From Verrucosispora sp. NA02020 (GTDB taxonomy: Bacteria > Actinomycetota > Actinomycetes > Mycobacteriales > Micromonosporaceae): DNA of 64,000 nucleotides. The stretch's first letter is position 1. Each line of letters begins with the position of its first letter. The position numbers were made by a program, and so were the translations under genes. Under the pieces are notes generated by a model. It was not told the DNA's origin. It ran no database searches and was given only the letters and a program-made list of their open reading frames with translations. Positions 16,737 to 32,948 of the stretch are shown in pieces. The stretch lies in NCBI RefSeq assembly GCF_013364215.1, contig NZ_CP054923.1, forward strand, positions 4,402,001-4,466,000, given 5' to 3'.

Positions 16737-17945
16737 TCAGCGCGGTCGTACCAGCAACGGCAGTTGGTCGTACGAACGCAGGCTGGCGTGTCGACGCCGG
16801 ACCGCCGGACCCGCCGGACCGAGGATCTCCACCGACCGCACGATCCGCTCGAAAACGATCACCGACATCAGCCGGGCCATCGCGGTGCCGAGGCAGTGGT
16901 GCAACCCGCCGCCGAAACCGAGGTGCGGGTTGGGGTCACGACCGACGTCGAGGCGCTCGGCGTCGGCGAACACGGAAGCGTCCCGGTTGGCGGCGCCGAG
17001 CAGCAACAGGACCGTCCGACCCGCCCGGATCTTCACACCCTCCACCTCGACGTGTTCGCGGGCCACCCGGATGACGTTCTGGATCGGCGCGTCGTACCGC
17101 AGGAACTCCTCCACCGCGACGGGCACCAGGCCCGGGTCGGCGCGCAGCCGGCGCAGCTGGTCCGGGTGCGCGAGCAGCGCCGCGACGCCGTTGGAGACCA
17201 GGCCCATGGTGGTCTCGAAGCCGGCGTGGAACAGGAACAGCATGTTGTCGACGAAGTCCGCCACGGCCAGCCGGTCGGTCGCCGACTCCTCCCAGTACAT
17301 CCCGGCCAGCGTCGGCCCCCCGGGCTCGTCGCGACGGGCGGAGAGCAGCTCGCCGAGGTAGTCGTGCAGCCAGGGCAGCGCGGCGTTGATGTCGTGCAGG
17401 TCGGACGGGGTGAGGTTCGCCGCGTCGAACACCTTGGCCAGCGAGATCACCCGGGTCAGTACTTCGGGCCGGTCCGAGGTCGGGATCCCGATCAGGTCGC
17501 ACACCACCCCGACCGGCAACGGCACCGCGAGGTCGGTCACCACGTCGAGGGTGCCGCGTTCCAGCGCGGGGTCGAGCAGCGCGTCGGCCGCCGCACCGAT
17601 GTGTCCGGTCAGCCGGCGCGCCACCGGGGTGCCGAGCGCCCGACCGATGAACCGCCGCAGTCGGGTGTGGTCCGGCGGGGTACGGGTCAGCACGATCCGG
17701 TCCAGGAAGTCCGCGCCCGGCCCGTCCCCGAGGGTGATCCGGGTGTACTCCGGCGGCATCCGGCTCTCCAGCCGGTTGTCGCGTAGCAGCGTGGTGACCA
17801 GGGAGTGCCCGGTGACCAGCCACTGGCCCAACTCGGCGCGGGACAGCGGGCCGCGTTCGCGCAGTCGCGCGTACGCCGGGTACGGGTCGTCCTGGGTCGC
17901 CAGGAACGCCGCGGACAGGTGAGGACGCGCGGTCTCGGCTCGCAT
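16737..17945 (-). CDS. Cytochrome P450, copy 1
   Basis: 402 aa, a normal length for a bacterial class I P450 of the CYP105/107-like group. Seen: I-helix AGFETT near residue 243, K-helix EFLR (ExxR) near 281 and heme loop FGGGLHHCLG near 345 with the Cys ligand. It needs a ferredoxin partner, and none is encoded nearby. The start ATG 17945 has no Shine-Dalgarno sequence; a -35/-10 pair ends seven bases upstream, so the mRNA is probably leaderless. It is divergent, over 97 bp, from a stand-alone condensation domain, suggesting that the two act on the same intermediate. Confidence 0.92.
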   Translation of the reverse strand: MRAETARPHLSAAFLATQDDPYPAYARLRERGPLSRAELGQWLVTGHSLVTTLLRDNRLESRMPPEYTRITLGDGPGADFLDRIVLTRTPPDHTRLRRFIGRALGTPVARRLTGHIGAAADALLDPALERGTLDVVTDLAVPLPVGVVCDLIGIPTSDRPEVLTRVISLAKVFDAANLTPSDLHDINAALPWLHDYLGELLSARRDEPGGPTLAGMYWEESATDRLAVADFVDNMLFLFHAGFETTMGLVSNGVAALLAHPDQLRRLRADPGLVPVAVEEFLRYDAPIQNVIRVAREHVEVEGVKIRAGRTVLLLLGAANRDASVFADAERLDVGRDPNPHLGFGGGLHHCLGTAMARLMSVIVFERIVRSVEILGPAGPAVRRRHASLRSYDQLPLLVRPR

Positions 17946-17952
17946 ACAGAGC

Positions 17953-17981
17953 ACTATCCGGGAGAGCCTGCCGGGCGGCAA
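17953..17981 (-). promoter_or_regulatory. Leaderless promoter of P450 copy 1
   Basis: On the minus strand TTGCCG (17981-17976) is followed after 17 bases by GATAGT (17958-17953), and then 7 bases to the ATG. This puts the expected transcription start at or within a base of the start codon, which also lacks a ribosome site. Confidence 0.6.
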
Positions 17982-18007
17982 GACCCTACATACATCTAGC
18001 GACACAG

Positions 18008-18036
18008 TCGACAAGGTCCACGGGCTGTTCTAGGCT
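18008..18036 (+). promoter_or_regulatory. Leaderless promoter of condensation gene 1
   Basis: TCGACA (18008-18013), a 17-base spacer, TAGGCT (18031-18036), then six bases to the GTG at 18043. No Shine-Dalgarno sequence is present. It sits back-to-back with the P450 promoter. Confidence 0.5.
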
Positions 18037-18042
18037 CGGTCC

Positions 18043-19359
18043 GTGGCTGAGCTCGTGCGTGAGGAACCCGCTTCCGTCGGTCAACGCCTCCTGGCCCTGA
18101 TGGACCACTACCGGGGTCGGGACAGCGCTCTCAACGAACAGGTGCTGTGGCGCCTGCGTGGCCCGTACGACCACGAGGCGATGACCCGGGCGGTGGCCGC
18201 CCTGACCGCCCGGCACGAGCCGCTGCGGACCACGTACCCGCGCGGTCGCCGGATGCGCCAGCAGATCCACGTGCCGCGCCCGGTGCCGGTGCCGGTGACC
18301 GACGTGTCGGCCGAGGCCGACCCGGGTGCCGCCGCCCGGGAGATCGTCGCCACCGAGGTCGCCACCGGGGTCGACGCCTCGGTGTGGCCGCTGCGGCCCC
18401 GGGTGGTCCGGCTCGACGCGGAGCACCACCTGGTGGTGCTCACCCTGCACCACTACTGCTCCGACGACTACTCCAACGCGTTGCTCGCCCGCGACCTGCG
18501 GTCCCTGTACGCCGTCGAGACCGGCGAGACGGTCGACCTGCCCGCCCCGCAGTGGCAGTACGCGCAGTGGGCCCGCTGGCAGGCCGACCAGCTCTCCGGC
18601 GCGAACCTGACCCGGCTCACCGACTACTGGACCGGCAAGCTGACCGGTGCGCGCCTGGTGGAACTGCCGGCCCGCCGGCGGCGTCCGGTGCCCGACGGCG
18701 AACCGCCGTGGATCTCGGTCGAGCACTACGTGGACGCCGAGACCACCGCCGCCCTGCGGCAGCTCGCCCGCCGGCACCGCACCACGCTCTTCCCGGTCAC
18801 GCTGGCGGTGTTCTACGCCCTGCTGTACGCCGAGACCGGCGCCGACGACCTCACCGTGGCCTCGCTGTTCGCCAACCGTTCGCAGCCACAGGTGCGCGAC
18901 ACGGTGGGCTTCTTCGCCAGCATGGTGTTGCTTCGGGAACGCTTCACGCCGGACACCACGCTGAGCGAGCTGATCGCCCAGGCCCGCACCACGGTGATGG
19001 ACGCGATGCGGCACCAGGACCTGCCACACCAGTTGCTCCCGCCGGACACCGTGGCGGGCGGCACCGGACGCACCGACGACGTGCTGTTCCAGCTGCTCGG
19101 CAGCCTGATGACCCGGGCGGACATGGCCGGTGAGGAACTGGACGACATGGAGGCCCAGCTCGAACGGCGGCGTTTCGCGCTGGAGTTCGTGGTGGTGCCG
19201 CAGGGCGACCAGCTCTCCGCGTTACTGTTGTGTTCCCGGGCCGAGTTCGATCCGCTGTGGGCGGACACCTTCGTCCGTGACTATGTCACCCTGGTGCGAC
19301 GCGCGGTCGCCGACGCCGACGTCCCGCTCGCCCGCCTGCGTGGCGCACCGGTGACCTGA
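18043..19359 (+). CDS. Stand-alone NRPS condensation domain, copy 1
   Basis: 438 aa, essentially a single condensation domain with no adenylation or carrier domain. The active-site motif HHYCSDDYS fits HHxxxDxxS near residue 140, and the second half holds the DxxVASLFANRSQP region expected of the C-terminal lobe. Free-standing C domains can form amide or ester bonds between a carrier-bound acyl group and a free or carrier-bound nucleophile, as SgcC5 does in C-1027 biosynthesis. A paralogue at 24-25.3 kb has the same architecture. The likely acyl carrier is the discrete ACP at 27.3 kb. The GTG start is set by the promoter geometry. The substrates are unknown. Confidence 0.88.
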   Translation: MAELVREEPASVGQRLLALMDHYRGRDSALNEQVLWRLRGPYDHEAMTRAVAALTARHEPLRTTYPRGRRMRQQIHVPRPVPVPVTDVSAEADPGAAAREIVATEVATGVDASVWPLRPRVVRLDAEHHLVVLTLHHYCSDDYSNALLARDLRSLYAVETGETVDLPAPQWQYAQWARWQADQLSGANLTRLTDYWTGKLTGARLVELPARRRRPVPDGEPPWISVEHYVDAETTAALRQLARRHRTTLFPVTLAVFYALLYAETGADDLTVASLFANRSQPQVRDTVGFFASMVLLRERFTPDTTLSELIAQARTTVMDAMRHQDLPHQLLPPDTVAGGTGRTDDVLFQLLGSLMTRADMAGEELDDMEAQLERRRFALEFVVVPQGDQLSALLLCSRAEFDPLWADTFVRDYVTLVRRAVADADVPLARLRGAPVT

Positions 19360-19366
19360 GCCCGCC

Positions 19367-19401
19367 GGCCCGCTCCGGGCCGGCACGACCCGGAGCGGGC
19401 C
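19367..19401 (+). terminator. Hairpin terminator after condensation gene 1
   Basis: A perfect 13-bp GC stem (19367-19379 with 19389-19401) with a 9-base loop, starting eight bases after the stop codon. Confidence 0.75.
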
Positions 19402-19403
19402 GA

Positions 19404-19588: not shown

Positions 19589-19817
19589 CGGTCTCGCCCG
19601 GCCGATCGCACAGGCGACACCCGACAGCGCAATTGATTGAACCTGCAATTATCGACATCGCACGAATCGAGCTATTCCCACTCGACGTGCCCGCACCGAC
19701 CGCAAATGCAAATTGCAGAACTCGCCGCGCGGATAATCCGGTTAAGTCTTTCTGAATCGGACCGAAACGGCACACATTAATTTTCGGACCGACCGACCCG
19801 CACCCCCGCAGATCCGG

Positions 19818-20258
19818 TCAGCCCCGATTCCGTCCGGCCAGTGGACCGGGGCACCCGCGCACCACCCGCGCCTCGGCAACCGCCGGACGTGACCTGCGCC
19901 GACGCACCAGGAACTGCAGGTGCAGCCGCAGCATGCGGCCGATCTGCTCGGACGCCACACCGCGTCCGCTCCGTCGCCCCTCCAGCATGGCCCGCTCCGC
20001 CCCGCAGCGCACGACCACCGCGGCCCCCGCCGCGCTCGCACCTGCCGCGACGTCGACCAACGAGGTGAAGCCCACCTCGTCCACCCCGGTGACGTCGGTC
20101 AGGTCCAGTTCCACCTGGTCGGGCAGCAGGTCACCATGGTCCAACATGTACTCGGCGACGCGGGTGACGTACCCCGCCGTGCTCCGGTCCACGCTGCCGC
20201 TGACGGAAATCGCTACGGCAGTTCTGCTCACCCTCCGGGCCTTGACCATAGGCAACAC
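19818..20258 (-). CDS. STAS-domain protein (anti-sigma-factor-antagonist-like)
   Basis: 146 aa. Residues about 12-105 follow the STAS pattern, including VELDLTDVTGVDEVGFTSLV. In SpoIIAA/RsbV proteins the loop reads D-S-x-G and the Ser is phosphorylated by an anti-sigma kinase; here it is D-E-V-G, so the acceptor is Glu. It may behave as a constitutively phospho-like partner, or have another binding role. The C-terminal 40 residues are Arg-rich and unlike the family. The GTG start has a very strong AGGAGGGGGG site. TATGGT on the minus strand at 20289-20284 is a plausible -10. No kinase partner is nearby. It faces the condensation gene convergently and is unlikely to be a biosynthetic enzyme. 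Confidence 0.7.
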   Translation of the reverse strand: MLPMVKARRVSRTAVAISVSGSVDRSTAGYVTRVAEYMLDHGDLLPDQVELDLTDVTGVDEVGFTSLVDVAAGASAAGAAVVVRCGAERAMLEGRRSGRGVASEQIGRMLRLHLQFLVRRRRSRPAVAEARVVRGCPGPLAGRNRG

Positions 20259-20683
20259 AATTCCCCCCTCCTGCTGATCTCACACCATAGAACGCACTCG
20301 CGCGGCATGGGAATAACCGATCGGCTTCAATACTGGGACATCCGCGTGCTATCTACGGCTGGTGATTCTGATGGACCACAATGCACGTTACTTTCCGTGC
20401 TTAGACAGGAAGTTCTCCGGCCGTCCCGCCCCGGTCCCGGCCGCCGGACCGTCGTCTCGACGGTGAGCAGCGTCGACGACGCGGGACCCCGGCCACCCGT
20501 ACCGCACGCGCGGCAGGCCGACGGGCGGCACCCCCCGACACCCGTCCGGGCGCCCCGGTCACCGGACGTGATCGGTCCCGGACCGTCGGCCGAACATCCG
20601 ACAAAAGTCGACGGAGCCCATGACCCGCACGGATCGGACGTCCTGACCGGACCGACGGAGTGTGTGGTGTGTCGTCATCGGTC
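20259..20683. other. Long intergenic region between the STAS gene and P450 copy 2
   Basis: About 425 bases without a supportable gene. The left 130 bases are AT-richer and hold the STAS promoter. The right part is GC-rich but none of its open frames has actinomycete-like protein content or a ribosome site. Confidence 0.5.
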
Positions 20684-20713
20684 TTGCCGGACGGCGGTAA
20701 AACGACAGACACT
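20684..20713 (+). promoter_or_regulatory. Leaderless promoter of P450 copy 2
   Basis: TTGCCG (20684-20689), an 18-base spacer, GACACT (20708-20713), then six bases to ATG 20720. It shares the TTGCCG -35 with the promoter of P450 copy 1. Confidence 0.5.
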
Positions 20714-20719
20714 AGGCGG

Positions 20720-21916
20720 ATGAGCGCACCGACCCTCGCACCCCGGTTCGACGCCCTGGACCCGAACGTCGTCGAGGACCCCTATCCCGAGTACGCCCGG
20801 CTGCGCGCCGCCGGCCCGCTGTGCCGGATCGGGCCGGGCAGTTGGGGTGTCACCCGCTTCGCCGACGTGGTGGCCCTGCAACACGACCCCCGGCTGGGCA
20901 GCGAGTTCCCCGCCGGCTACCACGAGGTGTCCGTGGGCGACGGCCCCGCCAGTGCCTTCTTCCAGCGCATCATGCTCTATCGCGATCCGCCCGACCACGT
21001 CCGGCTGCGTCGGCTGATGAGCCGCGCGTTCAGTCCCGCGGTCGTCCGCCAACTGCGGTCCTACGTCGAGGAACTGGTCGACGAGATGCTCGTCCCGGCC
21101 GTGGCGGCGGGCCGGATGGACCTGGTCCCCGAACTGGCCTACCCGCTGCCGGTCCGGGTGGTCTGCCGACTGATGGGCATCCCGCCGGAGTCCACCGACG
21201 ACGTCCGCCGGCACGCGATGAACCTCGGTCGCGCCTTCACCGCCGTGGTCCCCGAGCACGCCCGCGCCGACGCCGACGTGGCCGTACGCTGGCTGCGCGA
21301 GCACATCGGCGACCTGCTCGACCAGCGCCGCTCCCGTCGGGGCGACGACCTGCTCTCCCGGCTGCTCGACGTGGAGGAGTCCGGCGACAGCCTGAGCCAC
21401 GACGAGATCGTGGACAACACCGTCTTCTCGTTCTTCGCCGGTTTCGAGACCACCGTGCACATGATCACCACCGGTACCGCCGCGCTGCTGGCCCACCCGG
21501 ACCAGCTCGACCGGCTACGGGCCGACCCGGCCCTGGCGACCACCGCGGTCGACGAGTTCCTGCGCTGGGACGCCCCGATCCAGGGCACGGCCCGCTACGT
21601 GCACGAGCCCATCGAGATCGGCGGGCGCACGGTACGCAGAGGGCGGGTCCTGGTGCTCATGATCGGCTCGGCGAACCACGACGAGCGCCGGTTCACCCGG
21701 CCGGACCGGCTGGACGTGGGCCGCACCGACAACCCACACCTCGCCTTCGGCGGCGGCGCCCACCTCTGCCTCGGTGCCTTCCTGGCCCGGATGGAGGGGG
21801 CCGTGGTGTTCGACCGGCTGGCCCGCCTCGCCGTGCTCGAACCGGACGGCCCGACCGTACGCGAACGCGACACCCCGTTCCGCGCGTACGCCTCGGTGCC
21901 GATCCGGCTCGGCTGA
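20720..21916 (+). CDS. Cytochrome P450, copy 2
   Basis: 398 aa. I-helix FAGFETT near residue 239, ExxR as EFLR near 278, heme loop FGGGAHLCLG near 344. Both P450s of this locus share the unusual GFETT I-helix and the same N-terminal pattern (DPYPEYARLR), so they are likely paralogues with divided labour, for example two oxidations of one scaffold. ATG 20720 was chosen on promoter geometry; an upstream in-frame GTG at 20660 adds sequence unlike P450s. A hairpin follows at once, and the next two genes are on the opposite strand. No redox partner is encoded in the region. Confidence 0.9.
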   Translation: MSAPTLAPRFDALDPNVVEDPYPEYARLRAAGPLCRIGPGSWGVTRFADVVALQHDPRLGSEFPAGYHEVSVGDGPASAFFQRIMLYRDPPDHVRLRRLMSRAFSPAVVRQLRSYVEELVDEMLVPAVAAGRMDLVPELAYPLPVRVVCRLMGIPPESTDDVRRHAMNLGRAFTAVVPEHARADADVAVRWLREHIGDLLDQRRSRRGDDLLSRLLDVEESGDSLSHDEIVDNTVFSFFAGFETTVHMITTGTAALLAHPDQLDRLRADPALATTAVDEFLRWDAPIQGTARYVHEPIEIGGRTVRRGRVLVLMIGSANHDERRFTRPDRLDVGRTDNPHLAFGGGAHLCLGAFLARMEGAVVFDRLARLAVLEPDGPTVRERDTPFRAYASVPIRLG

Positions 21917-21938
21917 CCGGCCCGCCGGAGCGGGCCGG
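21917..21938. terminator. Hairpin terminator between P450 copy 2 and the O-methyltransferase
   Basis: A 9-bp GC stem (21917-21925 with 21930-21938) and a 4-base loop, directly after the P450 stop and before the convergent methyltransferase stop. Confidence 0.65.
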
Positions 21939-21965: not shown

Positions 21966-22985
21966 TCAGTCGGCCGGCAGGGCCTCGATCGCGGTCAGCG
22001 TGGGAGTGCCGATGACCTGGGTCAGCCGCAGCCCGGCCCGCTCCAGCAACCGACCGGTCTCCTCCGCGCTGCGGTGCGCGCCGCCGGTGAGCACCATCGC
22101 GTGCACGTCGAAGAGCTTCGCCATGTCGAAGGCGTCGCCGGGCGGGAGCACCGCCTCCAGCAGGACCAGCCGCGAGTCGGGCCGCATCGCGGTGCGCACG
22201 GTGGCGAGGATGCGGGTCGCGTCGTCGTCGTCGAAGCCCGGCAGCACCGTCTTGAGCAGGTAGCCGTCGCCGCCTGCGGGCACCGTGCCGAAGGCGTCGC
22301 CGGGCACCACCTCGCAGCGGTCGGCCACGCCGGCCTCGGCCAGCACCTTCGGCGCGCCCGCCACCACGTGCGGCAGGTCGAACAGCACCCCTCGCACCCC
22401 GGGGAAGCGGGTGAGCAGGCCGGCCAGGAAACCACCGGTCCCGCCGCCGACGTCCACCAGCGTGCCGAACCGCCGCCACGGGTACGCCCCGAGCACGGTC
22501 CGCAGGTGCAGGTGGTTCACGCTGCGCATCCAGTCGTCGACCCGGGCGCTCTCCTGCGGGTGGTCGGCGAGGTAGCTCCAGTAGTCCTGGCCGTGCACGT
22601 GCCCGAAGGCCGGTTCCCCGGTGCGCAGCGTGTGCCCGATCGCGGCCCAGGCCCGTACGTCGGAGTCGAGCAGCGCGAAGCTGTCGCGCAGCGACATCGG
22701 ATGGTCGCCGCGCAACGGCTCGGCCAGCGGCGTGAGCGCGAAGGTGGCGTCGGCGACCTCGCTGAACACGCCCCGGGCGGCCAGCGCCCGCAGCAGGCGC
22801 AGCAGCGCCCCGGCATGCGCGCCGGCCGAGGCGGCCAGCTCCGACACCGGTCGTGGACCGTCCACCAGCAGGTCGGCGATGCGCAGGTCGCAGGCGGCCC
22901 GCAGGGCGAACGGGGTGATCTGGTCACCCAACTCGCCGAGCCGGACCACGGCGGTCAGGTCGAGACTGCGTCGGGCGGCCGTCAT
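21966..22985 (-). CDS. SAM-dependent O-methyltransferase (plant-COMT-like family)
   Basis: 339 aa. N-terminal dimerization winged-helix region (residues 1-110), then the SAM-binding LVDVGGGTGGFLAGL near residue 178 and a C-terminal region with LLEAVLPPGD and DVHAMVLTGG, as in the small-molecule O-methyltransferase family 2 common in antibiotic clusters. It would methylate a hydroxyl on an aromatic or polyketide-like substrate; an N-hydroxyl is also possible given its partner. Its ATG overlaps the stop of the diiron oxygenase gene (ATGA), so the two are translationally coupled and probably work in sequence: oxygenation, then methylation. Confidence 0.88.
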   Translation of the reverse strand: MTAARRSLDLTAVVRLGELGDQITPFALRAACDLRIADLLVDGPRPVSELAASAGAHAGALLRLLRALAARGVFSEVADATFALTPLAEPLRGDHPMSLRDSFALLDSDVRAWAAIGHTLRTGEPAFGHVHGQDYWSYLADHPQESARVDDWMRSVNHLHLRTVLGAYPWRRFGTLVDVGGGTGGFLAGLLTRFPGVRGVLFDLPHVVAGAPKVLAEAGVADRCEVVPGDAFGTVPAGGDGYLLKTVLPGFDDDDATRILATVRTAMRPDSRLVLLEAVLPPGDAFDMAKLFDVHAMVLTGGAHRSAEETGRLLERAGLRLTQVIGTPTLTAIEALPAD

Positions 22986-23953
22986 GCGAGTTTCCCCCTT
23001 CGGATGCGCAGTCGCTCACCGGCGAACTGCAGCAGGCCCAGTTTGTCCAGTCCGGTGCGGACCGGCTCGGTCATCAGGCCGATCTGCCCGAGCGCCACCG
23101 CGACCCGGGAGAAGACCGCCTGTCGGTACTTGATCATCAGGTCGTGGTTGGTGGCGAAGGCGACGCCCTCGGCGCGGTCGACCTCCAGCCGCTCCCAGAT
23201 GTCGTCGAGCAGGAACCGCCGACGGATCAGGGCCGCGGCGTCCAGGACCAGTTCCTCCCGCTCGGCCCGCTCGGCCGAGGTGAGCTGGTCGTAGAGCCCG
23301 GAGAGGGAGAGCACGCCGAAGGTGACGTGCCGGGCCTCGTCCCGGGCCACGAGATGGGTCAGCTCCTTGATCAGCGGGTCGTGGAAACTGCTGTTGGAGA
23401 GCCGGAACGAGGCCATCGCGATCGCCTCCACCATGATCTGCATCCCGAGCGCCGTGACGTCCCATCGCGAGTCGGACAGGATGTCGGTGAGCAGCTCGCG
23501 CAGCGGCGCGGAGACCGGGTAGGGCTCGGGGATCTTCTCCCGCAGGTACCTGGAGAAGACCTCGACGTGCCGGGCCTCGTCCACCGCCTGGGTGGCGGCG
23601 TAGAACTTGCTGTCCAGATCCGGCACGGTCTCCACCAGCCGGGCCGCGACGATCATCGCGGCCTGCTCGCCGTGCAGGAACTGACTGACCATCCAGGACT
23701 GGAACTCCCACCGGAACGCGTCCCAGGCCCGGGGACCCCGCGGTGCCAGTGGCGACGCGGCGAACGCGGCCATCGCGAAGGCGGAGTCGTCCGGCAGCGG
23801 TTCGCCGAACGGCACCGGCACCGACCAGTCCACGTCGGTGACCTTCCACTGGGCCGCCTTGGCCCGTTCGTAGAGCGCCACGAGCCGGGGATCGGAGGCT
23901 TCGTAGTCCCAGGTGAGTGTGGTGTCGACGCGGGCCGGCACAACAAAGCTCAT
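22982..23953 (-). CDS. AurF/CmlI-type ferritin-like diiron oxygenase
   Basis: 323 aa. Two copies of E-x28-DEARH are present (around residues 87-120 and 160-195), the spacing expected of the four-helix diiron site of AurF and CmlI, which oxidise aryl amines to hydroxylamine, nitroso or nitro groups. The metal ligands all seem to be there. The start ATG 23953 has no ribosome site and lies seven bases from a good -10, so it is probably leaderless. Coupled to an O-methyltransferase and divergent from a condensation domain, it may create an N-O bond on an amine-bearing intermediate. Other reactions of this superfamily, such as C-hydroxylation, cannot be excluded. Confidence 0.75.
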   Translation of the reverse strand: MSFVVPARVDTTLTWDYEASDPRLVALYERAKAAQWKVTDVDWSVPVPFGEPLPDDSAFAMAAFAASPLAPRGPRAWDAFRWEFQSWMVSQFLHGEQAAMIVAARLVETVPDLDSKFYAATQAVDEARHVEVFSRYLREKIPEPYPVSAPLRELLTDILSDSRWDVTALGMQIMVEAIAMASFRLSNSSFHDPLIKELTHLVARDEARHVTFGVLSLSGLYDQLTSAERAEREELVLDAAALIRRRFLLDDIWERLEVDRAEGVAFATNHDLMIKYRQAVFSRVAVALGQIGLMTEPVRTGLDKLGLLQFAGERLRIRRGKLA

Positions 23954-25320: not shown

Positions 25321-25495
25321 CGCCCCGGCCCAGAAGCGCCACACAACACGACACTGGCGTCACACACTCTTGACACCGCATCCGGGTGCTGGGAGGCTTC
25401 GACCAGCCCTACCTGGTAGCGCGCAGGGAGCGGGGGTGCCTGTACCCGCCGGACGCGACCGCTCACACGACAACTGCTGTGACAGGAAGGTCCAC

Positions 25496-26608
25496 ATGCC
25501 ACTTCACCTGCACTGGTTCCTCCCGTCCCACGGTGACGGCCGTGAGGTGGCGAAGACCCCGCAGGGCGCGCCCGTCGACCCGGCGGAGAACGTCCGGCGC
25601 GCGCCGGACATCGACTACCTGGCGCAGGTCGCGGGAGCCGCCGACCGCTTCGGCTTCACCGGCGCCCTGGTGCCGACCGGGCTGTTCTGCGAGGACCCCT
25701 GGCTGGTGTCGGCCGCCCTGGCGGACCGGACCCGTCGGCTGCACTTCATGGTCGCCGTACGCCCCGGCTCGGTGGCGCCGACGGTGGCCGCGCAGATGGC
25801 CGCCACCCTGCAACGCCTCTCCGGTGGTCGGCTGCTGCTCAACGTGGTCACCGGCGGCGACCCCGACGAGCAGCTGCGCTACGGCGACTGGCTCGACCAC
25901 GACCAGCGTTACGCCCGCGCCGAGGAGTTCCTCGACGTCTTCGGCCGCGCCTGGTCCGGTGGCACGTACGACTTCGAGGGCACCCACTACCGGGTACGGG
26001 CCGGTCGGCTGACCCGGGGACATCCGGTCACCCCGCCGGTCTTCCTCGGTGGGTCCTCGGCCGCCGCGCACGACGTGGCCGCCCGGCACGCCGACGTCTA
26101 CCTGGCCTGGGGCGAACCCCCCGAGCAACTGGCCGCCCTGGTGAAGAAGGTCCGGGACCGGGCCGACGCGCAGGGCCGCGAGCTGTCCTACGGATCCCGG
26201 TTCCACGTGATCAGCCGGGACACCGCCGAGGAGGCGTGGGACGTCGCGCACCGCCTGGTGGCCGGGATGCACCCGGACACCATCGCCGCCGCCCAGCGGC
26301 GCTTTGCGCGCACCGAGTCCGAGGGGCAACGCCGGATGGCCGCCCTGCACCAGGGCCGGACCGACAGCCTCGAGGTCTACCCGAACGTGTGGGCCGGCTA
26401 CGGGCTGGTCCGCCCCGGCGCCGGAGCCGCGCTGGTCGGCAGCCACGTCGAGGTGGCCGACCGGATCGAGGAGTACCACGCCCTCGGACTGGACCATCTG
26501 ATCCTCTCCGGCCAGCCGCACCTGGAGGAGGCGTACACCTTCGGTGAGGGTGTGCTGCCGATCCTCCGCCGGCGGGGACTGCTGGCCGACCCGGAAGGAG
26601 ACCGGTGA
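25496..26608 (+). CDS. Luciferase-like FMNH2-dependent monooxygenase (SsuD-like)
   Basis: 370 aa from ATG 25496 with GGAAGG five bases upstream. The sequence follows the TIM-barrel alkanesulfonate monooxygenase family: FHLHWFLP-like start (LHLHWFLPSHGDGRE), LNVVTGGDPDEQLRYGDWLD, HDQRYARAEEFLDV and a late NVWAGYGLVRPGAGAALVGS. SsuD cleaves alkanesulfonates with FMNH2 and oxygen; family members in biosynthetic clusters also hydroxylate or N-oxidise. The flavin reductase is the next gene, overlapping by GTGA, so it forms a two-component system. TTGACA at 25370 is a plausible -35. In this context a biosynthetic oxidation is at least as likely as sulfur scavenging. Confidence 0.88.
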   Translation: MPLHLHWFLPSHGDGREVAKTPQGAPVDPAENVRRAPDIDYLAQVAGAADRFGFTGALVPTGLFCEDPWLVSAALADRTRRLHFMVAVRPGSVAPTVAAQMAATLQRLSGGRLLLNVVTGGDPDEQLRYGDWLDHDQRYARAEEFLDVFGRAWSGGTYDFEGTHYRVRAGRLTRGHPVTPPVFLGGSSAAAHDVAARHADVYLAWGEPPEQLAALVKKVRDRADAQGRELSYGSRFHVISRDTAEEAWDVAHRLVAGMHPDTIAAAQRRFARTESEGQRRMAALHQGRTDSLEVYPNVWAGYGLVRPGAGAALVGSHVEVADRIEEYHALGLDHLILSGQPHLEEAYTFGEGVLPILRRRGLLADPEGDR

Positions 26609-27276
26609 CCGACCTGCGGCAACACGCGCCCGAGCGGATGATCCCTCCGACGGATCCCCTCTCCGTTCCGGCCACCGTCCTGATCGGCAACCCGCGCCGG
26701 GGCTCGCGGACCCTCACCGTGGCCCGGCACGTGACCGGCGCGCTGCGGACCGGTCTGGCCGACCTCGGCGTACACCTCGGCGAGCCGCACCTGGTCGACC
26801 TGGCCGAACTCGGCGCGGACCTGCCGTCCCGGCTGATCGCCGGCACCGCCGCCCACGCGCCCCTGGAGCGGGTGGTCGCCCGGGTCCGCGGACCCGGCCT
26901 GCTGGTGGTGGTGAGCCCGACCTTCAAGGGTTCCTACACCGGCCTGCTGAAGCTCTTCCTCGACATGCTCCCCCGCGAGGGACTGCGTCCGGGCACGGTC
27001 GCGGTGCCGGTGATGACCGCCGGCTGGGCGCAGCACCGCTTCGTCTGCGACGCACAGCTACGCCCGTTGCTGGTGGAGCTGGGTGCCGTGGTGCCGGTCC
27101 GCGGCCTGGCGGTGCTCGAGGAGGAGTTCGGCGACCTCGACGCGGCGGTCGCCGGATGGACCACGGCCGCGGTGCCGGTGCTCGCCGCCGTACTGCGCAG
27201 TTGCCAGCCCCCGTCTGTGGGACCGCACCGACCCGCGGAACCCGTTCCCGTCCATCAACCCGCACAGCTCCGGTGA
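26605..27276 (+). CDS. NADPH-dependent FMN reductase (SsuE/MsuE-like)
   Basis: 223 aa. The flavodoxin-like fold starts after about 20 extra residues, with VLIGNPRRGSRTLTVARHV binding FMN phosphate, SPTFKGSYTGLLKLFLD as the isoalloxazine loop, and ending in a Pro/His-rich tail. It supplies reduced FMN to the luciferase-like monooxygenase encoded just before it; the GTG start overlaps that gene's stop. The same arrangement is known from ssu and msu operons. The ACP gene follows 29 bases later and is probably co-transcribed. Confidence 0.87.
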   Translation: MTDLRQHAPERMIPPTDPLSVPATVLIGNPRRGSRTLTVARHVTGALRTGLADLGVHLGEPHLVDLAELGADLPSRLIAGTAAHAPLERVVARVRGPGLLVVVSPTFKGSYTGLLKLFLDMLPREGLRPGTVAVPVMTAGWAQHRFVCDAQLRPLLVELGAVVPVRGLAVLEEEFGDLDAAVAGWTTAAVPVLAAVLRSCQPPSVGPHRPAEPVPVHQPAQLR

Positions 27277-27305: not shown

Positions 27306-27605
27306 ATGAGTGAGCAGACCCCGACGGTCGTGGGACCGAAGCAGTCCGACGAGCAGATCCGCGCTCAGGTCCAGGCCATCGTGCTCGACCTGGCGCCCAA
27401 CCCCGACGGCCTGCGTGGGGAGGAGACGGCCCTGGTCCAGGACCTCGGCTTCCACTCGCTGGCCCTGATGGAACTCGCCTTCGCCCTGGAGGACGAGTTC
27501 GACCTCGAACCGATCGACGAGAAGACGGCCCGGTCGATCACCTCGCTCGGTGCGGTGCAGGAGCACGTGCTGCGCCGGATCGCCGAGCGTGACGCCGGGG
27601 CCTGA
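27306..27605 (+). CDS. Discrete acyl/peptidyl carrier protein
   Basis: 99 aa. The phosphopantetheine site is LGFHSLALMELAF with the modified Ser after His; most carriers have Asp there, though HS also occurs. The protein is acidic and has the four-helix spacing of an ACP (second helix ALEDEFDLEPIDEK). A ribosome site GGAAGG precedes the ATG. It ends an operon with the monooxygenase and FMN reductase, so the substrate oxidised by these enzymes may be tethered to it. It is the only free carrier in the window and the natural partner of the two free condensation domains. The Sfp-type transferase at 13 kb could activate it. Confidence 0.9.
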   Translation: MSEQTPTVVGPKQSDEQIRAQVQAIVLDLAPNPDGLRGEETALVQDLGFHSLALMELAFALEDEFDLEPIDEKTARSITSLGAVQEHVLRRIAERDAGA

Positions 27606-27691: not shown

Positions 27692-28780
27692 TCAGCCGAT
27701 CAGCCGGTACAGCCGGTGGAAGCGGTCGTCGATGGGCAACTGGGTGACCGCCACGAAGCCGGCCTCGGCCGCGAGGTCCCGGACCGCGTCCGGGCGCAGT
27801 ACCGTGCCGGTGCCGGCGGAGGGCTGCTGACTGCGGCTCGCCGGCAGGCAGTGCAGCACGCTGGTGGCGTACTGGAAGCGTTCGATCTCGTCGGCCGGTG
27901 CGGCGAACCGCTCCGCCACCCGGGCGTCGAGCACCAGCACGCTGCCGCCGTCGGCACACAGCCGCCGGCAGGCCCGCAGCACCTCCACCGGGCGCGCGAT
28001 CTCGTGCAGCGCGTCGAAGAGGCAGACCAGGTCGTACGTGCCGGCCAGGTCGGGGTCGGCGGCGTCCCGGGCGGCGAAGGAGACCCGGTCGCTCAACCCG
28101 GCGTCCGCCGCGTGCCCGGTGGCGTCCGCGATCACCTCGGGGTCGATGTCGTACCCGTCCACGGTGATCCCGGGGAAGGACCGGGCCAACCCGATGCCCG
28201 CCCAGCCCGCACCGCAGGCCACGTCCGCGACCCGGGCCGGCGTGCCGACCAGTCGGGTGTGGATGTCCGGAGCGTGCCGGCGCAGCCAGCCGGCCATCTG
28301 GTGGGTGAACATCGCGCGGTTCGCCCCGGCGTGGCCCTCCCGCCAGTCGACGCCGTAGACCGCGTCGGCCACACCGGCACCGCTGCGGTACGCGTCGAGC
28401 AGCGCCGGCAGCGCCGCCGCCACGCCGCCCAGCGGCAGCACGGCAAGCGCCGACATGGACAGCGGGCTGTCCGAGACGGTCAGCACCTCGGCGTGCGCGG
28501 CGGGCAGCGTGAACACCCGCTCGTCGGCCGGGACCGACGCGTCGTCGACGGTCAGCACCCCGGCGACCGCCTGCTGTTCCAGCCACTCGCGGGCGTACCT
28601 CGGGTCGACCCCGACGCGCGCGGCGATCTCCCCCACCGTGCCGGGGCCCTTGGCCGCGAGGTCGTCGTAGAGCCCGAGTCGGACACCGAGGTACGTGGCG
28701 AGCAGTTCCTGGGTGGCCAGCAGCGAGGTCCACATCCGGACCGCGAAGACCCGGGCCTGCGGGTCGATGGGAGTCGTCAT
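27692..28780 (-). CDS. Class I SAM-dependent methyltransferase with winged-helix N-terminus
   Basis: 362 aa from ATG 28780, which has GGAGGGG six bases upstream. Residues 1-160 form the helical/winged-helix part seen in Rv2258c-like and ubiquinone-type methyltransferases. The SAM motif VADVACGAGWAGIGLAR is near residue 190, followed by VCLFDALHEIARP and VLVLDARVAERF. It is unlike the O-methyltransferase at 22 kb, so two methylations or a regulatory variant are possible. The transcript starts from a good promoter (TGTCCA, 17 bases, TAGAGT) and carries the palindrome ACACACGTGTGT in its leader. The substrate is unknown. Confidence 0.82.
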   Translation of the reverse strand: MTTPIDPQARVFAVRMWTSLLATQELLATYLGVRLGLYDDLAAKGPGTVGEIAARVGVDPRYAREWLEQQAVAGVLTVDDASVPADERVFTLPAAHAEVLTVSDSPLSMSALAVLPLGGVAAALPALLDAYRSGAGVADAVYGVDWREGHAGANRAMFTHQMAGWLRRHAPDIHTRLVGTPARVADVACGAGWAGIGLARSFPGITVDGYDIDPEVIADATGHAADAGLSDRVSFAARDAADPDLAGTYDLVCLFDALHEIARPVEVLRACRRLCADGGSVLVLDARVAERFAAPADEIERFQYATSVLHCLPASRSQQPSAGTGTVLRPDAVRDLAAEAGFVAVTQLPIDDRFHRLYRLIG

Positions 28781-28797
28781 CGGTATCCCCTCCGGCG

Positions 28798-28809
28798 ACA
28801 CACGTGTGT
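28798..28809. promoter_or_regulatory. 12-bp perfect palindrome ACACACGTGTGT in a divergent promoter region
   Basis: It lies between the methyltransferase -10 (TAGAGT on the minus strand, 28831-28826) and its ribosome site, about ten bases after the expected start of transcription. This is a position where a repressor would block transcription. No regulator gene is nearby to pair with it. Confidence 0.4.
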
Positions 28810-28914
28810 GTTGTTTTCTCGGCACACTCTATCCACGAGGGCGCGCCATGGACAGCACCCGGCGACGAGAGATAGCGTCCGAACACGACACACCGAACAC
28901 AGGAGGGGGCCGAC

Positions 28915-30039
28915 GTGAACCCAACGCTGTCCCGGGTACGCGAGCTGGCGTCCCGCGTGGCGAAGCACGCCGAGGAGATCGAGCAGCGACGCGGCCTCCC
29001 CGACGACCTCGTGGACGACCTCCGCGCGGCCGGCTGCTTCCGGATGTTCGCCCCCGCCAGTCACGGCGGCGACCAGCTCGACCTGTCCGACGTGCTCGCC
29101 GTGCTGGAGGAACTCGCCCGCGCCGACGCGGCCACCTCGTGGACGGTGGGCCAGGTGGCCCTGTCGCACCTGATCGTGCGGTGCGGTCCGGCCGCCGCGC
29201 TCGACGAGGTCTTCGCCGACGGCGCGGACACCCTGGTCGCGGGGGCCGTGGCGCCCAAGGGCCGGGCCCGCACCGGCGACGACGGGTGGCGGGTGACCGG
29301 CCGTTGGCCCTTCGTCACCGGGTGCCCCCGGGCCGCCTGGTTCTATCTGAACTGCGTGCTGGTCTCCGGCCGCAGTGTGCCGGTCGGCCCGGACGGCGCA
29401 CCGGCCACCCGCATCCTGTTCGTGCCGGCCCGGGACGTCCGGGTCCTCGACACCTGGCAGGTGCTGGGGCTGCGCGGCACCGCCAGCCACGACGTGACGG
29501 TCGACGACGCGCGGGTGCCGGAGCATCTCGCGGTCTCCCCGCAGGACGGTGACGCCGCACACCGCATCGCGCAGTCCAGCCTGATCATCGGCGCGGTGGC
29601 GGTCGGTCTGGCCGACGGCGCGCTGACCGACCTGGTGCGTCTGGCCGCCGACGGCAAACGTCCGGCGTTGAGCGCGCGGCGGCTCGCCGACTCCCCGGTC
29701 TTCCTCGACCGGCTGGGCGAGGCGCAGACCATGCACCGGGCGGCCCGGGCGCTGCTGTACGCGGAGGCGGCCGAGGCGACGGCGGCACCCGAGGGCGGGT
29801 CACCCGGTGGCCGGGCCCGGCTGCGCGCGGCGGCGGCGCAGGTGACCAGCCTCTGCGCGCAGGTCGTCGACGCCGCGTACACGCTGGCCGGTGGTACGGC
29901 GGTGTACGACACCTCGCCCCTGCAACGGCGGATGCGGGACATGCGTACCGCCACCCAGCACTTCGTGGCGGGCCGCGACTCGTACGCCACGGTGGGCGCG
30001 CTCGTGGTGGACGAGGAGACGTCCACCGGGCCGCTCTGA
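28915..30039 (+). CDS. Acyl-CoA-dehydrogenase-fold flavoprotein (group D monooxygenase-like)
   Basis: 374 aa, GTG start with AGGAGGGGG upstream. N-terminal helical domain, a middle beta domain (GRWPFVTGCPRAAWFYLN) and a C-terminal helical bundle with TLAGGTAVYDTSPLQRRMRD. This is the layout of acyl-CoA dehydrogenase relatives such as DszC, HpaB and other FMNH2/FAD-dependent hydroxylases found in natural-product clusters, which act as monooxygenases rather than dehydrogenases. The FMN reductase at 26.6 kb could also serve it. It is followed by an SDR 66 bases on, and the two are probably an operon. Dehydrogenation of a carrier-bound acyl chain is the alternative. Confidence 0.8.
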   Translation: MNPTLSRVRELASRVAKHAEEIEQRRGLPDDLVDDLRAAGCFRMFAPASHGGDQLDLSDVLAVLEELARADAATSWTVGQVALSHLIVRCGPAAALDEVFADGADTLVAGAVAPKGRARTGDDGWRVTGRWPFVTGCPRAAWFYLNCVLVSGRSVPVGPDGAPATRILFVPARDVRVLDTWQVLGLRGTASHDVTVDDARVPEHLAVSPQDGDAAHRIAQSSLIIGAVAVGLADGALTDLVRLAADGKRPALSARRLADSPVFLDRLGEAQTMHRAARALLYAEAAEATAAPEGGSPGGRARLRAAAAQVTSLCAQVVDAAYTLAGGTAVYDTSPLQRRMRDMRTATQHFVAGRDSYATVGALVVDEETSTGPL

Positions 30040-30105
30040 CCCGAGTCGTCACGGGGCCGGCCGTGGACCGGCGCCGTGGAGAGCACATCGTCTGTGGAGG
30101 TTCCA

Positions 30106-30915
30106 ATGAGTGAGTTGTTCTCGGTCGCCGGCAAGACGGCACTGGTCACGGGCGGCACGCAGGGCATCGGCCGGATGATCGCGGAGGGCTTCGTCGCCGC
30201 CGGTGCGCGCGTCTACCTGACCGCCCGGACGAAGTCCGACTGCGAGGACGTAGCCCAGGAACTCTCGGCCGGTGGCGGGACGTGCGTGGCGATCCCCGCC
30301 GACCTCTCCGAGGAGTCCGAGTGCGTCCGGCTGGCGCGGGAGATCGGCGAGCGGGAGTCCGGGCTGCACATCCTGGTGAACAACGCCGGCACCGCCTGGA
30401 CCGCGCCGGTGGAGCAGTTCCCCGCCAACGCCTGGGACAGCGTGCTCGACCTGGGTCTGAAGGCGCCGCTGTTCCTGGTGCGGGAACTGGCCGGACTGCT
30501 GCGGGCGGCCGGCACCGCCGAGGACCCGGCGCGCATCGTCAACATCGGCAGCGCCGACGCACAGCGGGTGCCGGAGATGCCGACCTATTCGGCCGCCGCC
30601 GCCAAGGCGGCGATCCACCACATCACCCGGATGCTGGCCCACGACTTCGCGCCGACGGTGACCGCGAACGTGATCGCACCGGGCAGCTTCCCGTCCCGGA
30701 TGATGGCCGGTGTGCTGGAGGCGATGGGCGAGGAGATCGCCGCGGTGACGCCGTTGCAGCGCATCGGGCGGCCGGACGACATCGTCGGCACCGCCATCTA
30801 CCTGTGCAGCCGCGCCGGATCGTACGTGACCGGTGCGGTGGTCACGGTCGACGGCGGGCTCTCCACGGCCCGGACCGGCTTCGTGCCGGGCCGGTTCCTC
30901 ACCGACGAGGGGTGA
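30106..30915 (+). CDS. Short-chain dehydrogenase/reductase with a displaced catalytic Lys
   Basis: 269 aa from ATG 30106 (GGAGG five bases upstream). Rossmann motif TGGTQGIG, NNAG in strand 4 and a catalytic Ser in NIGSAD are normal for 3-oxoacyl-ACP-reductase-like SDRs, as is IAPGSFPSRM. The active-site segment, however, reads Y-S-A-A-A-A-K (Tyr161 to Lys167) where the family has YxxxK. Two extra Ala within a (GCC)4 run look like a slippage insertion. The enzyme may have adapted, be slow or be dead. It lies downstream of the flavoprotein and ends at a strong hairpin. It would reduce a keto group or oxidise an alcohol in the pathway. Confidence 0.87.
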   Translation: MSELFSVAGKTALVTGGTQGIGRMIAEGFVAAGARVYLTARTKSDCEDVAQELSAGGGTCVAIPADLSEESECVRLAREIGERESGLHILVNNAGTAWTAPVEQFPANAWDSVLDLGLKAPLFLVRELAGLLRAAGTAEDPARIVNIGSADAQRVPEMPTYSAAAAKAAIHHITRMLAHDFAPTVTANVIAPGSFPSRMMAGVLEAMGEEIAAVTPLQRIGRPDDIVGTAIYLCSRAGSYVTGAVVTVDGGLSTARTGFVPGRFLTDEG

Positions 30916-30932
30916 CCCGCCCCCGACCCGCG

Positions 30933-30968
30933 CGAGGGCCGGGCACCCGATCGGGTACCCGGCCCTCG
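30933..30968. terminator. Bidirectional hairpin terminator
   Basis: An 11-bp perfect outer stem (30933-30943 with 30958-30968) and a further 6-bp inner stem after one mismatch, between the convergent SDR and VOC genes. Confidence 0.8.
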
Positions 30969-30978
30969 TGCCGTGCGG

Positions 30979-31329
30979 TCAGTCCTTCGGCGCGGGCGGT
31001 ACGTGCAGGCCGAAGGCGAGTCCCTGGTTGTCCCGGCACTCGGCGAACGCACCCCACTCCTCGGTGGCCGGACGCATCGGCTCCACCTCGCCACCGAGTT
31101 CCTGCACCCGCTTGATGGCGGCGTCGATGTCGTCCACCCGGAAGTAGAGGTAGTGCTGCGGCGGCCCGGGATCGCGGTGGAAGCCGCCCGGCACCGCCCC
31201 TTCCCCGGTGTCGATCGACCCACCGTGTTCCTGCGCCTGCACCTTCCAGCCGAACAACTCGGCGTAGAAGCTGCTGGCCACCGCGACGTCCGGCACCCCG
31301 AACTCGAAGTACGACAGCTGTCCTGACAC
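30979..31329 (-). CDS. VOC-family protein, copy 3
   Basis: 116 aa from GTG 31329, which has GAGGAGG six bases upstream; the longer open frame has no such site. SYFEFGVPDVAVASSFYAEL and the closing CRDNQGLAFGLHVPP are typical of the CFP32/glyoxalase-like branch of the vicinal oxygen chelate fold. It is more distant from the pair at 16 kb than they are from each other. Divergent from the aldehyde dehydrogenase gene, with a possible -10 TAGGAT at 31409 on the plus strand. A protective or isomerase role is possible; nothing specific can be said. Confidence 0.83.
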   Translation of the reverse strand: MSGQLSYFEFGVPDVAVASSFYAELFGWKVQAQEHGGSIDTGEGAVPGGFHRDPGPPQHYLYFRVDDIDAAIKRVQELGGEVEPMRPATEEWGAFAECRDNQGLAFGLHVPPAPKD

Positions 31330-31481
31330 GACCGGCCTCCTCGGTCCAACCATCCGGTACGCCACCCGACCGTCCGGACGGGGGGCTATCTAACGCAACA
31401 AACTACACTAGGATTCGACCCAACATACTCCGCTGACCGTCGCCATCGGATGGCGCGCCGAGCCGGAAGAGGTGTCACCAC

Positions 31482-32948
31482 GTGCCCGTCACCGCCGCTC
31501 CGACCGAACTGATCCCGGACACCGCCGCCCTGATCGGCGCCACCCGCACGGCCACCACCACCGGCGGCGTGCACGAGCACGTCTACGCCGCCGACGGACG
31601 CGTGACCGCAGCCGTGCCGCTGGGCGGCGCCGCCGAGATGGACGCGGCGGTCCGTGCCGCCGGGGAGGCCCTCGACGGCTGGCGGGCCACCCCCGGCAAC
31701 GTACGCCGGGATCTGCTGCTCGCCCTGGCCGACCTGGTCGAGCGGCACGCCACCGAGCTGGGCGGGTTACAGACGCTGGAGAACGGCTGCCCCCGGCAGT
31801 TCGCCTCGGTGATGCCCCGGGTCGCCGTGGACCACCTGCGGTACAACGCCGGATGGGCGGACAAGGTCGGCGGCGAGGTCGTCCCGACGTGGCCGATCCG
31901 GGCCGTCGACTACACGCTGGACGAGCCGTACGGCGTGGTGGCCCTGATCATCCCCTGGAACGGCCCGCTGGTGTCGGTCGCGCAGATGCTCGGCCCGGCG
32001 CTCGCGGCCGGCAACACGATCGTGCTCAAGCCTTCCGAGCTGGCGCCGTTCACCGCGCTGCGCATCGGTGAGCTGGCTCTGGAGGCGGGCTTCCCGCCCG
32101 GCGTGCTCAACGTGGTGCCCGGCGGGGCAGCCGGCGGCGAGGCGCTGGTACGCCACCCGGGCGTGGACAAGGTGCACTTCACCGGCGGCGGCGCCACCGC
32201 CCGGCGGATCCTCGCCACCGCCGCCGAGCGGCTCCTGCCGGTGGGCCTGGAACTGGGCGGCAAGTCGGCCCACGTCATCTTCGCCGACGCCGACGTGCGG
32301 ATGGCGGCCCGGCTGGCGATGAGCGGCGTCGTCGCGCTCAGCGGCCAGGGCTGCGCCAACGGCACCCGGGTGCTGGTGCACTCGTCCGTCTACGACGAGG
32401 TGCTGCGGACCGTCGCCGCCCGGCTGGCCCGGGTGCCGCTCGGCGATCCCGCCGAGGACCGCACGATGATGGGCCCGGTCGTCAGCGAGCAGGCGTGCCA
32501 CCGGATCCTGGGTGTGGTGGAGCGGGCCCGGGACAAGGGCCAGGGGCGGCTGGTGACCGGCGGCGAGCGCCTCGGCGGCGACCTCGGCGACGGGTACTTC
32601 ATCGCGCCGACGGTGTTCGGGGAGGTCGACCCGGACAGCGAACTGGCGCAGGAGGAGATCTTCGGGCCGGTGCTGGCGTTCACCTCCTTCGACACCGAGG
32701 AGGAGGCGATCCGGCTGGCCAACGGCACCCGCTACGGACTCGGGGCGTACCTGCACACCACCGACCTGCGCACGGCGCACCGGGTGAGCCGCGCGGTGGC
32801 GGCGGGCAGTGTCTGGGTCAACGGGGTACCCGGCGTGCTGCCCTCGGCCCCGTTCGGCGGGATGCGGCAGAGCGGCTGGGGTCGCATCGGCGGCGAGGCC
32901 GGCGTCCGGGAGTTCCTGCGGCCGAAGAACGTCTGGATCGCCGCCTGA
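31482..32948 (+). CDS. NAD(P)-dependent aldehyde dehydrogenase
   Basis: 488 aa, the normal family length, GTG start behind an AGAGGTG site. Catalytic residues are in place: Glu in LELGGKSA, the nucleophilic Cys in GQGCANGTR, and IPWNGPL with the Asn that stabilises the oxyanion. The PWN motif and FTGGGATAR cofactor loop are standard. It would oxidise an aldehyde to an acid, either an intermediate of the tailoring pathway or the aldehyde product of the luciferase-like monooxygenase, which in SsuD chemistry does release aldehydes. It is the last gene of region 2 before a strong terminator. Confidence 0.92.
   Translation: MPVTAAPTELIPDTAALIGATRTATTTGGVHEHVYAADGRVTAAVPLGGAAEMDAAVRAAGEALDGWRATPGNVRRDLLLALADLVERHATELGGLQTLENGCPRQFASVMPRVAVDHLRYNAGWADKVGGEVVPTWPIRAVDYTLDEPYGVVALIIPWNGPLVSVAQMLGPALAAGNTIVLKPSELAPFTALRIGELALEAGFPPGVLNVVPGGAAGGEALVRHPGVDKVHFTGGGATARRILATAAERLLPVGLELGGKSAHVIFADADVRMAARLAMSGVVALSGQGCANGTRVLVHSSVYDEVLRTVAARLARVPLGDPAEDRTMMGPVVSEQACHRILGVVERARDKGQGRLVTGGERLGGDLGDGYFIAPTVFGEVDPDSELAQEEIFGPVLAFTSFDTEEEAIRLANGTRYGLGAYLHTTDLRTAHRVSRAVAAGSVWVNGVPGVLPSAPFGGMRQSGWGRIGGEAGVREFLRPKNVWIAA

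Follow-up and report, generated by a model that had tools for sequence, protein, structure and literature searches.

Free-standing condensation domains in a coelibactin-type gene cluster of Verrucosispora sp. NA02020 and a possible trans route of chain finishing

Organization of the locus and its cluster

The DNA considered here is a 64 kb stretch (the window; G000:C1:4402001-4466000, contig NZ_CP054923.1) of the 7.28 Mb genome of Verrucosispora sp. NA02020, and its subject is the locus at 16737..32948, which encodes two free-standing condensation (C) domains, C1 and C2, a discrete acyl carrier protein (ACP) and many oxidative enzymes. Coordinates without a prefix are window positions, L-numbers denote fetched loci or stretches of relatives or of the own genome, and G-numbers denote genomes, G000 being that of NA02020. 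The initial annotation had treated the locus as a unit apart, unassigned to any pathway. All the genes that it listed are present where it had placed them, as judged by Pfam and open reading frames (ORFs), and their order is conserved in relatives; the locus is not separate, being the right half of one conserved cluster of about 57 kb (G000:C1 about 4,381,400-4,438,700).

The locus begins with cytochrome P450 a (16737..18014, minus strand; PF00067), followed by C1 (18043..19359, plus; PF00668, 187.7 bits), P450 b (20660..21916, plus; PF00067), an O-methyltransferase (OMT) with Methyltransf_2 and dimerization domains (21966..22985, minus; Pfam), a predicted ferritin-like diiron oxygenase (22982..23953, minus) and C2 (24013..25320, plus; PF00668, 207.9 bits). 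C1 and C2 are paralogues with 42% identity, as are the two P450s (44%), and the active-site motif HHxxxD is present in both C domains, as HHYCSDD in C1 and HHLVTDA in C2. To the right of C2 lie an SsuD-like (luciferase-type) flavin monooxygenase (25490..26608, plus, start approximate), an NADPH-dependent FMN reductase (26605..27276, plus; both by Pfam and NCBIfam), the ACP, an ORF of 99 aa with the motif DLGFHSLAL (27306..27605, plus), and MT2, a methyltransferase with an Rv2258c-like winged-helix N-terminus (27692..28825, minus; Pfam). The locus ends with an acyl-CoA-dehydrogenase-fold flavoprotein (28915..30039, plus; Pfam), whose nearest NCBIfam models, HsaA and p-hydroxyphenylacetate hydroxylase, both score below cut-off, a short-chain dehydrogenase/reductase (SDR; 30076..30915, plus; Pfam, NCBIfam), a VOC/glyoxalase-like protein (30979..31365, minus; Pfam) and an aldehyde dehydrogenase (31482..32948, plus; Pfam, NCBIfam). 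Two ABC transporters follow, one a fusion of membrane and ATPase parts (33027..34892, minus) and the other a second such fusion (34847..36650, minus, start approximate; both by Pfam).

To the left of the locus, within the window, are two nonribosomal peptide synthetases (NRPSs). NRPS1 (1175..6379, minus) was read from Pfam and motifs as a TubC_N docking domain followed by heterocyclization (Cy), adenylation (A) with an inserted methyltransferase (MT), thiolation (T) and thioesterase (TE) domains, the last carrying the motif GYGLGA, in which the nucleophile is lost. NRPS2 (6376..13017, minus) has the order T-Cy-A-T-Cy-A-T; Pfam finds in it three PP-binding, two AMP-binding and two Condensation stretches, the latter matching from profile position 38 on, and the Cy motif pattern is seen in one of the two. 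These genes are accompanied by a saccharopine-dehydrogenase-like protein of the SrbE-like kind (105..1178, minus; PF03435, 30.0 bits against a cut-off of 25.1), a phosphopantetheinyl transferase (PPTase; 13066..13860, plus; PF01648), an MFS transporter (13949..15655, plus; Pfam) and two VOC/glyoxalase-like proteins (PF00903), the first of the SrbJ-like kind (15733..16155, minus) and the second next to P450 a (16249..16728, minus).

The cluster continues beyond the left edge of the window with a salicylate/2,3-dihydroxybenzoate-AMP ligase (about L071:1400-3010, plus), a thiazolinyl imine reductase (TIGR01761, 277.6 bits against a cut-off of 188.8), a ligase of 531 aa resembling fatty acyl-AMP ligases (FAALs; L072:2620-4215, plus), whose nearest solved relatives are FAALs (3pbk best, 1.2e-54), and NRPS3 (C/Cy-like-A-T-TE), whose TE motif, GWSLGA, keeps its Ser. 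Also present are a stand-alone TE, an O-methyltransferase, two DAO-family oxidases, an acyl-CoA dehydrogenase together with another ORF resembling one, and an NtaA/DmoA-family monooxygenase (L071:13825-15312; 507.8 bits against a cut-off of 279.7). Thus, the claim that no adenylation domain is present holds inside 16737..32948 and fails for the conserved cluster, which includes the FAAL-like ligase and the aryl-AMP ligase. No salicylate synthase was found near the cluster, the nearest of the three chorismate-binding genes in the genome being about 168 kb away.

By motif reading, the A-domain residues are DLYQLGLIH in the first module of NRPS2, DLYNLSLIW in its second, and DLYNMSLIW in both NRPS1 and NRPS3. 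The DLYNLSLIW and DLYNMSLIW sets we take to be the Cys-type code. The T-Cy-A-T-Cy-A-T order of NRPS2 and the Cy-A-MT-T-TE architecture of NRPS1 are those expected of the coelibactin/sorangibactin type, to which the cluster backbone, a predicted thiazoline-metallophore NRPS, belongs, and the compound made is probably metal-binding.

Conservation of the cluster

From the aryl ligase through the ABC pair, the genes form one conserved cluster. All 37 query genes over that span are collinear in M. phaseoli as well as HNM0581, S. fenicalii yielded 34 of the 37, and CB01531, M. gifhornensis and Catelliglobosispora carry the gene set in rearranged form. Within the locus itself, gene order is kept in L011-L014 at 77-95% identity (L012 stops short of the aldehyde dehydrogenase) and in L015, from Salinispora fenicalii, at 65-90%, where the second glyoxalase was not seen. 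Conservation over L011-L015 indicates that the arrangement is not due to chance. The closest named protein matches come from Micromonospora, Verrucosispora and Salinispora. Between C1 and P450 b there is also a STAS-domain-like ORF (19818-20258; Pfam score below cut-off), conserved at 81-92% in L011-L014 and at 65%, in inverted orientation, in L015.

Scattering of these genes among relatives, which would have refuted the initial annotation, was looked for and is not seen in the core. C2, FAAL and ACP are found jointly in 22 of 41 tabulated clusters, 20 of them with the diiron gene; the outer genes (C1, NRPS3, the SDR and the ABC pair) come and go. The C1-type motif HHY[CV]SDD is present in all ten C1-type matches. 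In Catelliglobosispora, a C1 relative (L048) lies about 390 kb from C2, together with a P450 and two acyl-CoA-dehydrogenase relatives; this spacing speaks against strict co-inheritance of C1, which is perhaps a separately mobile unit. In CP22 (L126, G040:C22:460001-480000), a further C domain, with 42% identity to C1, stands by an ACP (70%), an acyl-CoA-dehydrogenase-like flavoprotein, a P450 and an aldehyde dehydrogenase, some 18-22 kb past the imine reductase.

A side observation concerns the genome as a whole: at G000:C1 about 182-428 kb, C- and AMP-binding-domain matches with identical scores repeat about 149.3-149.6 kb apart (264093/413706, 182449/331783, 277099/426712). This spacing of about 149 kb reflects either a large duplication or an assembly artefact.

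The C2 clade

Genome contigs were scanned with a 40-sequence C2 alignment, which gave 60 loci; 47 of these (L011-L057) were treated as C2 kin, and the other 13 (L058-L070), with C-domain matches of 25-34%, were set aside as unrelated. H136 and D140 of C2 are invariant in the 40-row alignment, and HHxxxD is kept in 43 of the 44 readable C2-type matches. The C2 genes of Micromonospora ATA32 and Catelliglobosispora and the NRPS1 of ATA32 (L050, L053, L085) match in two pieces or frames, probably owing to draft-assembly frameshifts.

In distant genera, too, C2 is repeatedly accompanied by the diiron gene, FAAL, ACP and MT2, and an imine-reductase homologue is present in 38 of the 40 genomes holding C2-kin loci. 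The reductase lies 9-25 kb from C2 in about 29 of the 40, by a hand count in which contig identity was confirmed for part. Linkage was also measured in an even set of 150 family genomes, the own included, with C2 or a paralogue accepted at E<=1e-70. C2 occurs in five of them, and in all five a TIGR01761 match over cut-off lies 14-24 kb away; such matches occur in 11 of the 150 (hypergeometric 8e-7, relatedness ignored). Two members of the sample, G136 and G057, share coordinates with G009 (M. humi) and G037 (Catelliglobosispora) and are probably the same genomes. C2 is therefore linked to the NRPSs, and it marks a clade of putative thiazoline-metallophore clusters. This bears out the suggestion in the initial annotation that the C enzymes are tied to the NRPSs on the left, since they travel together in relatives.

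The terminal thioesterase of NRPS1

In all 26 aligned rows from clusters with C2 (C2+), the nucleophile position of the NRPS1 TE is neither Cys nor Ser (16 Gly, 8 His, 1 Arg, 1 Asp), versus Cys in all 17 rows (16 genomes) from clusters lacking C2 (C2-). Two further C2+ TEs, read by eye as GRDLGG and GHGVGG, are also without a nucleophile, which brings the count to 28 of 28 readable C2+ clusters. Furthermore, 12 readable Streptomyces clusters that were fetched after the rule had been noted, and typed for C2 before the TE was read, all fit it, the two C2+ clusters (G194, G229) having a dead TE and the ten C2- clusters a Cys. Thirteen of the 26 C2+ rows have a gap at the lid region, and the catalytic-His column holds His in 14 of the 26 versus 17 of 17 in C2-. 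The four different replacement residues make released constraint likelier than a new nucleophile. Among readable clusters, then, the in-line TE looks dead where C2 is present.

This count covers C2 loci with a fetched NRPS1 end lying within its contig; it leaves out L085 (broken frame), the TE of L111 (the second G340 place) was unread, and G206 stands outside the set. On an NRPS1 tree of 40 rows (23 C2+ and 17 C2-, L086 and L097 having been dropped as too short), independent origins of TE loss were sought and not found, all C2+ rows being explained by one change.

The trans carrier

A second regularity concerns the carrier protein that accompanies C2. Over the fetched stretches, 41 C2-type clusters were tabulated (the C2 loci L012, L046 and L047 lie outside the table), and an MbtH-A-T protein was counted at >=45% identity, so that matches of 28-35% in Catelliglobosispora, Solihabitans, CP22 and G286 do not enter. 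FAAL plus ACP is present in 22 of the 41 clusters and MbtH-A-T in 11; none has both. The diiron gene accompanies FAAL plus ACP in 20 of 22 clusters (it was not found in C28SCA and A. rubida) and MbtH-A-T in 0 of 11. A trans carrier thus co-occurs with C2, and the carrier-bound setting that the initial annotation had assumed for the substrate agrees with the recurrence, beside C2, of a discrete ACP with its own ligase. One C2- entry has a 35% MbtH-A-T match.

The diiron protein and other oxidative enzymes

The diiron protein had been called AurF-type. It does exceed the PF11583 cut-off, by a small margin (32.3 versus 29.6 bits), and E96, E126, H129, E176, E206 and H209 are invariant in 37 sequences. 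The best solved relatives of its profile and its nearest folds are aldehyde-deformylating oxygenase and R2lox; none of the 32 matches to solved proteins at E<=10 is named AurF or CmlI, nor is any of the fold matches listed, a result still compatible with an AurF-type enzyme. With the aldehyde-deformylating oxygenase, R2lox and VlmB-homologue folds it shares the ferritin-like diiron fold and a twofold ExxH motif, at identities of at most 22%. N-oxidation by this enzyme, as the initial annotation proposed, and O-methylation of an N-O group are candidate reactions here.

Two described diiron systems were considered as models and rejected. LynB7, a thiazoline decarboxylase acting on a thiazoline carboxylate, has PtmU3-like Asp/His/Glu ligands according to the available part of its description (PMC10127204), as opposed to the ferritin-like set here. 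The enteromycin/akazaoxime model, with diiron oxime formation and a nitronate O-methyltransferase, offers a chemical analogy only, as the cluster given in the accessible text (PMC9967187) consists of A-PCP, KS-AT-KR-ACP, ACP and C-A-PCP, without Cy.

The SsuD-like monooxygenase falls below both relevant NCBIfam cut-offs (440.4 versus 518.2 bits for the SsuD equivalog, 453.3 versus 510 bits for the other). With its FMN reductase (25490-27276) and the NtaA/DmoA-family enzyme left of the window, one thiazoline cluster holds two flavin monooxygenases of the sulfur type.

Proposed pathway and alternatives

It seems to us about as probable as its negation that tailoring and finishing within the pathway fall to this half of the cluster, with C2 taking the place of TE release by linking the chain on NRPS1 to a substrate held by a trans carrier. 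The aryl-AMP ligase would load NRPS2, NRPS2 and NRPS1 would assemble an aryl-heterocycle chain, and the imine reductase would reduce a thiazoline. Exit through the built-in TE would be blocked, its nucleophile being gone, and C2 would transfer the chain from the last T domain of NRPS1 to the carrier substrate, a direction that we infer. In NA02020, the discrete ACP would serve as carrier, and the FAAL-like ligase would charge it with a presumed cargo that may be oxidized by the diiron enzyme and methylated by MT2 or the OMT; one guess for the oxidation is an N-hydroxylation leading to a chelating hydroxamate. In sister clusters, the MbtH-A-T protein would be the carrier, and as proteins of this kind load amino acids, the exchange of FAAL plus ACP for MbtH-A-T favours an amine-bearing acceptor. 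The observations behind the proposal are the single conserved cluster, the linkage of C2, its intact motif, the lost TE nucleophile and the co-occurring trans carrier; all the enzymatic steps are predictions.

Several observations weigh against this proposal. Fatty or aryl acids, which offer no amine, are the usual substrates of FAAL-type ligases. Eight of the 41 clusters (MH99, Planotetraspora, Sphaerimonospora, andamanensis, Bailinhaonella, Solihabitans, A. nipponensis and A. enzanensis) have neither full carrier set in the fetched stretches, several of which end at contig ends or have short coverage; andamanensis has a FAAL without ACP, and Bailinhaonella an ACP-like match without FAAL. The 17 C2- entries showed no FAAL or ACP, in agreement with the proposal, but are mostly single 20 kb stretches from which a distant copy could escape. 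Microtetraspora and A. nipponensis hold C2 kin and no imine reductase, and in A. enzanensis the reductase is about 60 kb from C2. Release by other TEs is possible, since NRPS3 keeps its Ser and the stand-alone TE gene occurs in both C2+ and C2- clusters. Finally, the C2+ state is a single change on the NRPS1 tree (split support 31), so that TE loss is perhaps one accident inherited by all; for the same reason, the 28/17 split does not amount to 45 independent tests, low chance figures must be read likewise, and lineage effects are a possible cause of the C2/TE rule.

The usual preference of FAALs for fatty or aryl acids keeps alive an account in which the flow is reversed: a fatty or other acid, placed on the ACP by FAAL and oxidized by the diiron enzyme, is used by C2 to acylate an amine of the NRPS product, such as the nitrogen of a reduced thiazolidine, as in lipo-initiation or with HamF of fragin. 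The kinship of the ligase with solved FAALs fits this account, as do, in the consulted portions of the sources, the FAAL, free ACP and C domain that start daptomycin-like lipopeptides (PMC9113097) and the prediction of HamF as a starter C domain (PMC11659414); it nevertheless leaves unexplained both the dead TE of C2+ clusters and the exchange of FAAL plus ACP for MbtH-A-T, and we consider it unlikely, though well worth keeping in view. Drift, in which the TE died once in an ancestor, C2 came by chance and adds some other unit, and release falls to the stand-alone TE, the NRPS3 TE or spontaneous cyclization, agrees with the one change on the tree, with the intact NRPS3 motif and with the stand-alone TE gene found in both cluster kinds. 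That gene is, however, found equally in clusters whose in-line TE is intact, and the NBC_00083 and globbae stretches showed no NRPS3 (unspecific NRPS matches apart), so that drift appears a distinctly improbable explanation. Mixed gene orientations, and the PPTase and transporter sitting between the halves, might suggest a separate pathway merely adjoining the NRPSs; this we hold to be very improbable indeed, because even in distant genera, where the gene order differs, C2 and the diiron gene keep the company of this kind of NRPS pair, and the linkage of C2 to the imine reductase in the 150-genome sample already contradicts it.

Relation to known systems

In the open-licence literature, no match to the whole gene set and no description of the C2 clade was recognized, in keeping with the view of the initial annotation that no described pathway has this set; the NRPS half is nevertheless of a described kind, and fragin provides a described case of an AurF-like oxygenase together with a free C domain. 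As far as the available text of PMC10127202 goes, the sorangibactin cluster (srb, Sorangiineae MSr11367) is called coelibactin-like, coelibactin itself has not been isolated, and the elements common to those clusters and the present one are a pair of seven-domain and five-domain NRPSs, an imine reductase, a saccharopine-dehydrogenase-like protein, a VOC protein, a salicylate-type ligase, a P450 and methyltransferases. There are also differences: the sorangibactin terminal TE has a catalytic Cys and its cluster a salicylate synthase, whereas the TE here has Gly and no such synthase is nearby, and a free C domain, a FAAL, a discrete ACP and a diiron enzyme, all of which are present here, go unnamed in the same portion of that account. 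Because its TE nucleophile position holds Gly and not Cys, the NA02020 cluster is better placed in a derived sister lineage than as a strict member of the type; it represents a known assembly-line kind in derived form, with what appears to be a new finishing arrangement. A coelibactin-like cluster of Micromonospora SH-82 is named, without gene detail, in the part of PMC12471853 available.

The fragin/valdiazen product binds metal, and VibH is a free-standing, amide-forming C enzyme. The available description of the fragin/valdiazen ham cluster (PMC11659414) resembles the present locus in an AurF-like oxygenase, whose substrate there is an amino acid attached to a carrier, and in a free-standing C domain; it differs in that HamF is predicted to be a starter C domain using a free amine, HamD has a reductase domain at its end, and Cy-NRPS and FAAL go unmentioned there. 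In daptomycin-like initiation, as the consulted part of PMC9113097 has it, FAAL and a discrete ACP serve a C domain, as proposed here, although that domain lies within the NRPS and acts at the start, unlike the free-standing C2. OaaC is likewise a stand-alone, amide-forming C enzyme of an NRPS-like pathway, the available text making no mention of a dead TE or of such a Cy-NRPS (PMC13142362). Foxicin (PMC5318452) and kineochelin (PMC13238742) were rejected as matches, the gene sets differing in the portions available.

Implications

We propose, tentatively and with more doubt than conviction, that this lineage has swapped TE release for a trans finishing module, consisting of a free C domain and a separately charged carrier (FAAL plus ACP with diiron-oxidized cargo, or MbtH-A-T), which would add a new end group; a hydroxamate or another further metal-binding group is plausible. 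For the widespread orphan clusters of Micromonospora, Salinispora, Streptomyces, Amycolatopsis and others, this would supply a rule, namely that where a free C2-type domain stands by a Cy-NRPS, a dead in-line TE and a trans carrier are to be expected. It would also suggest that coelibactin-like metallophores bear C-terminal end groups not yet seen, and may offer a natural set of parts for altering the release of NRPS chains.

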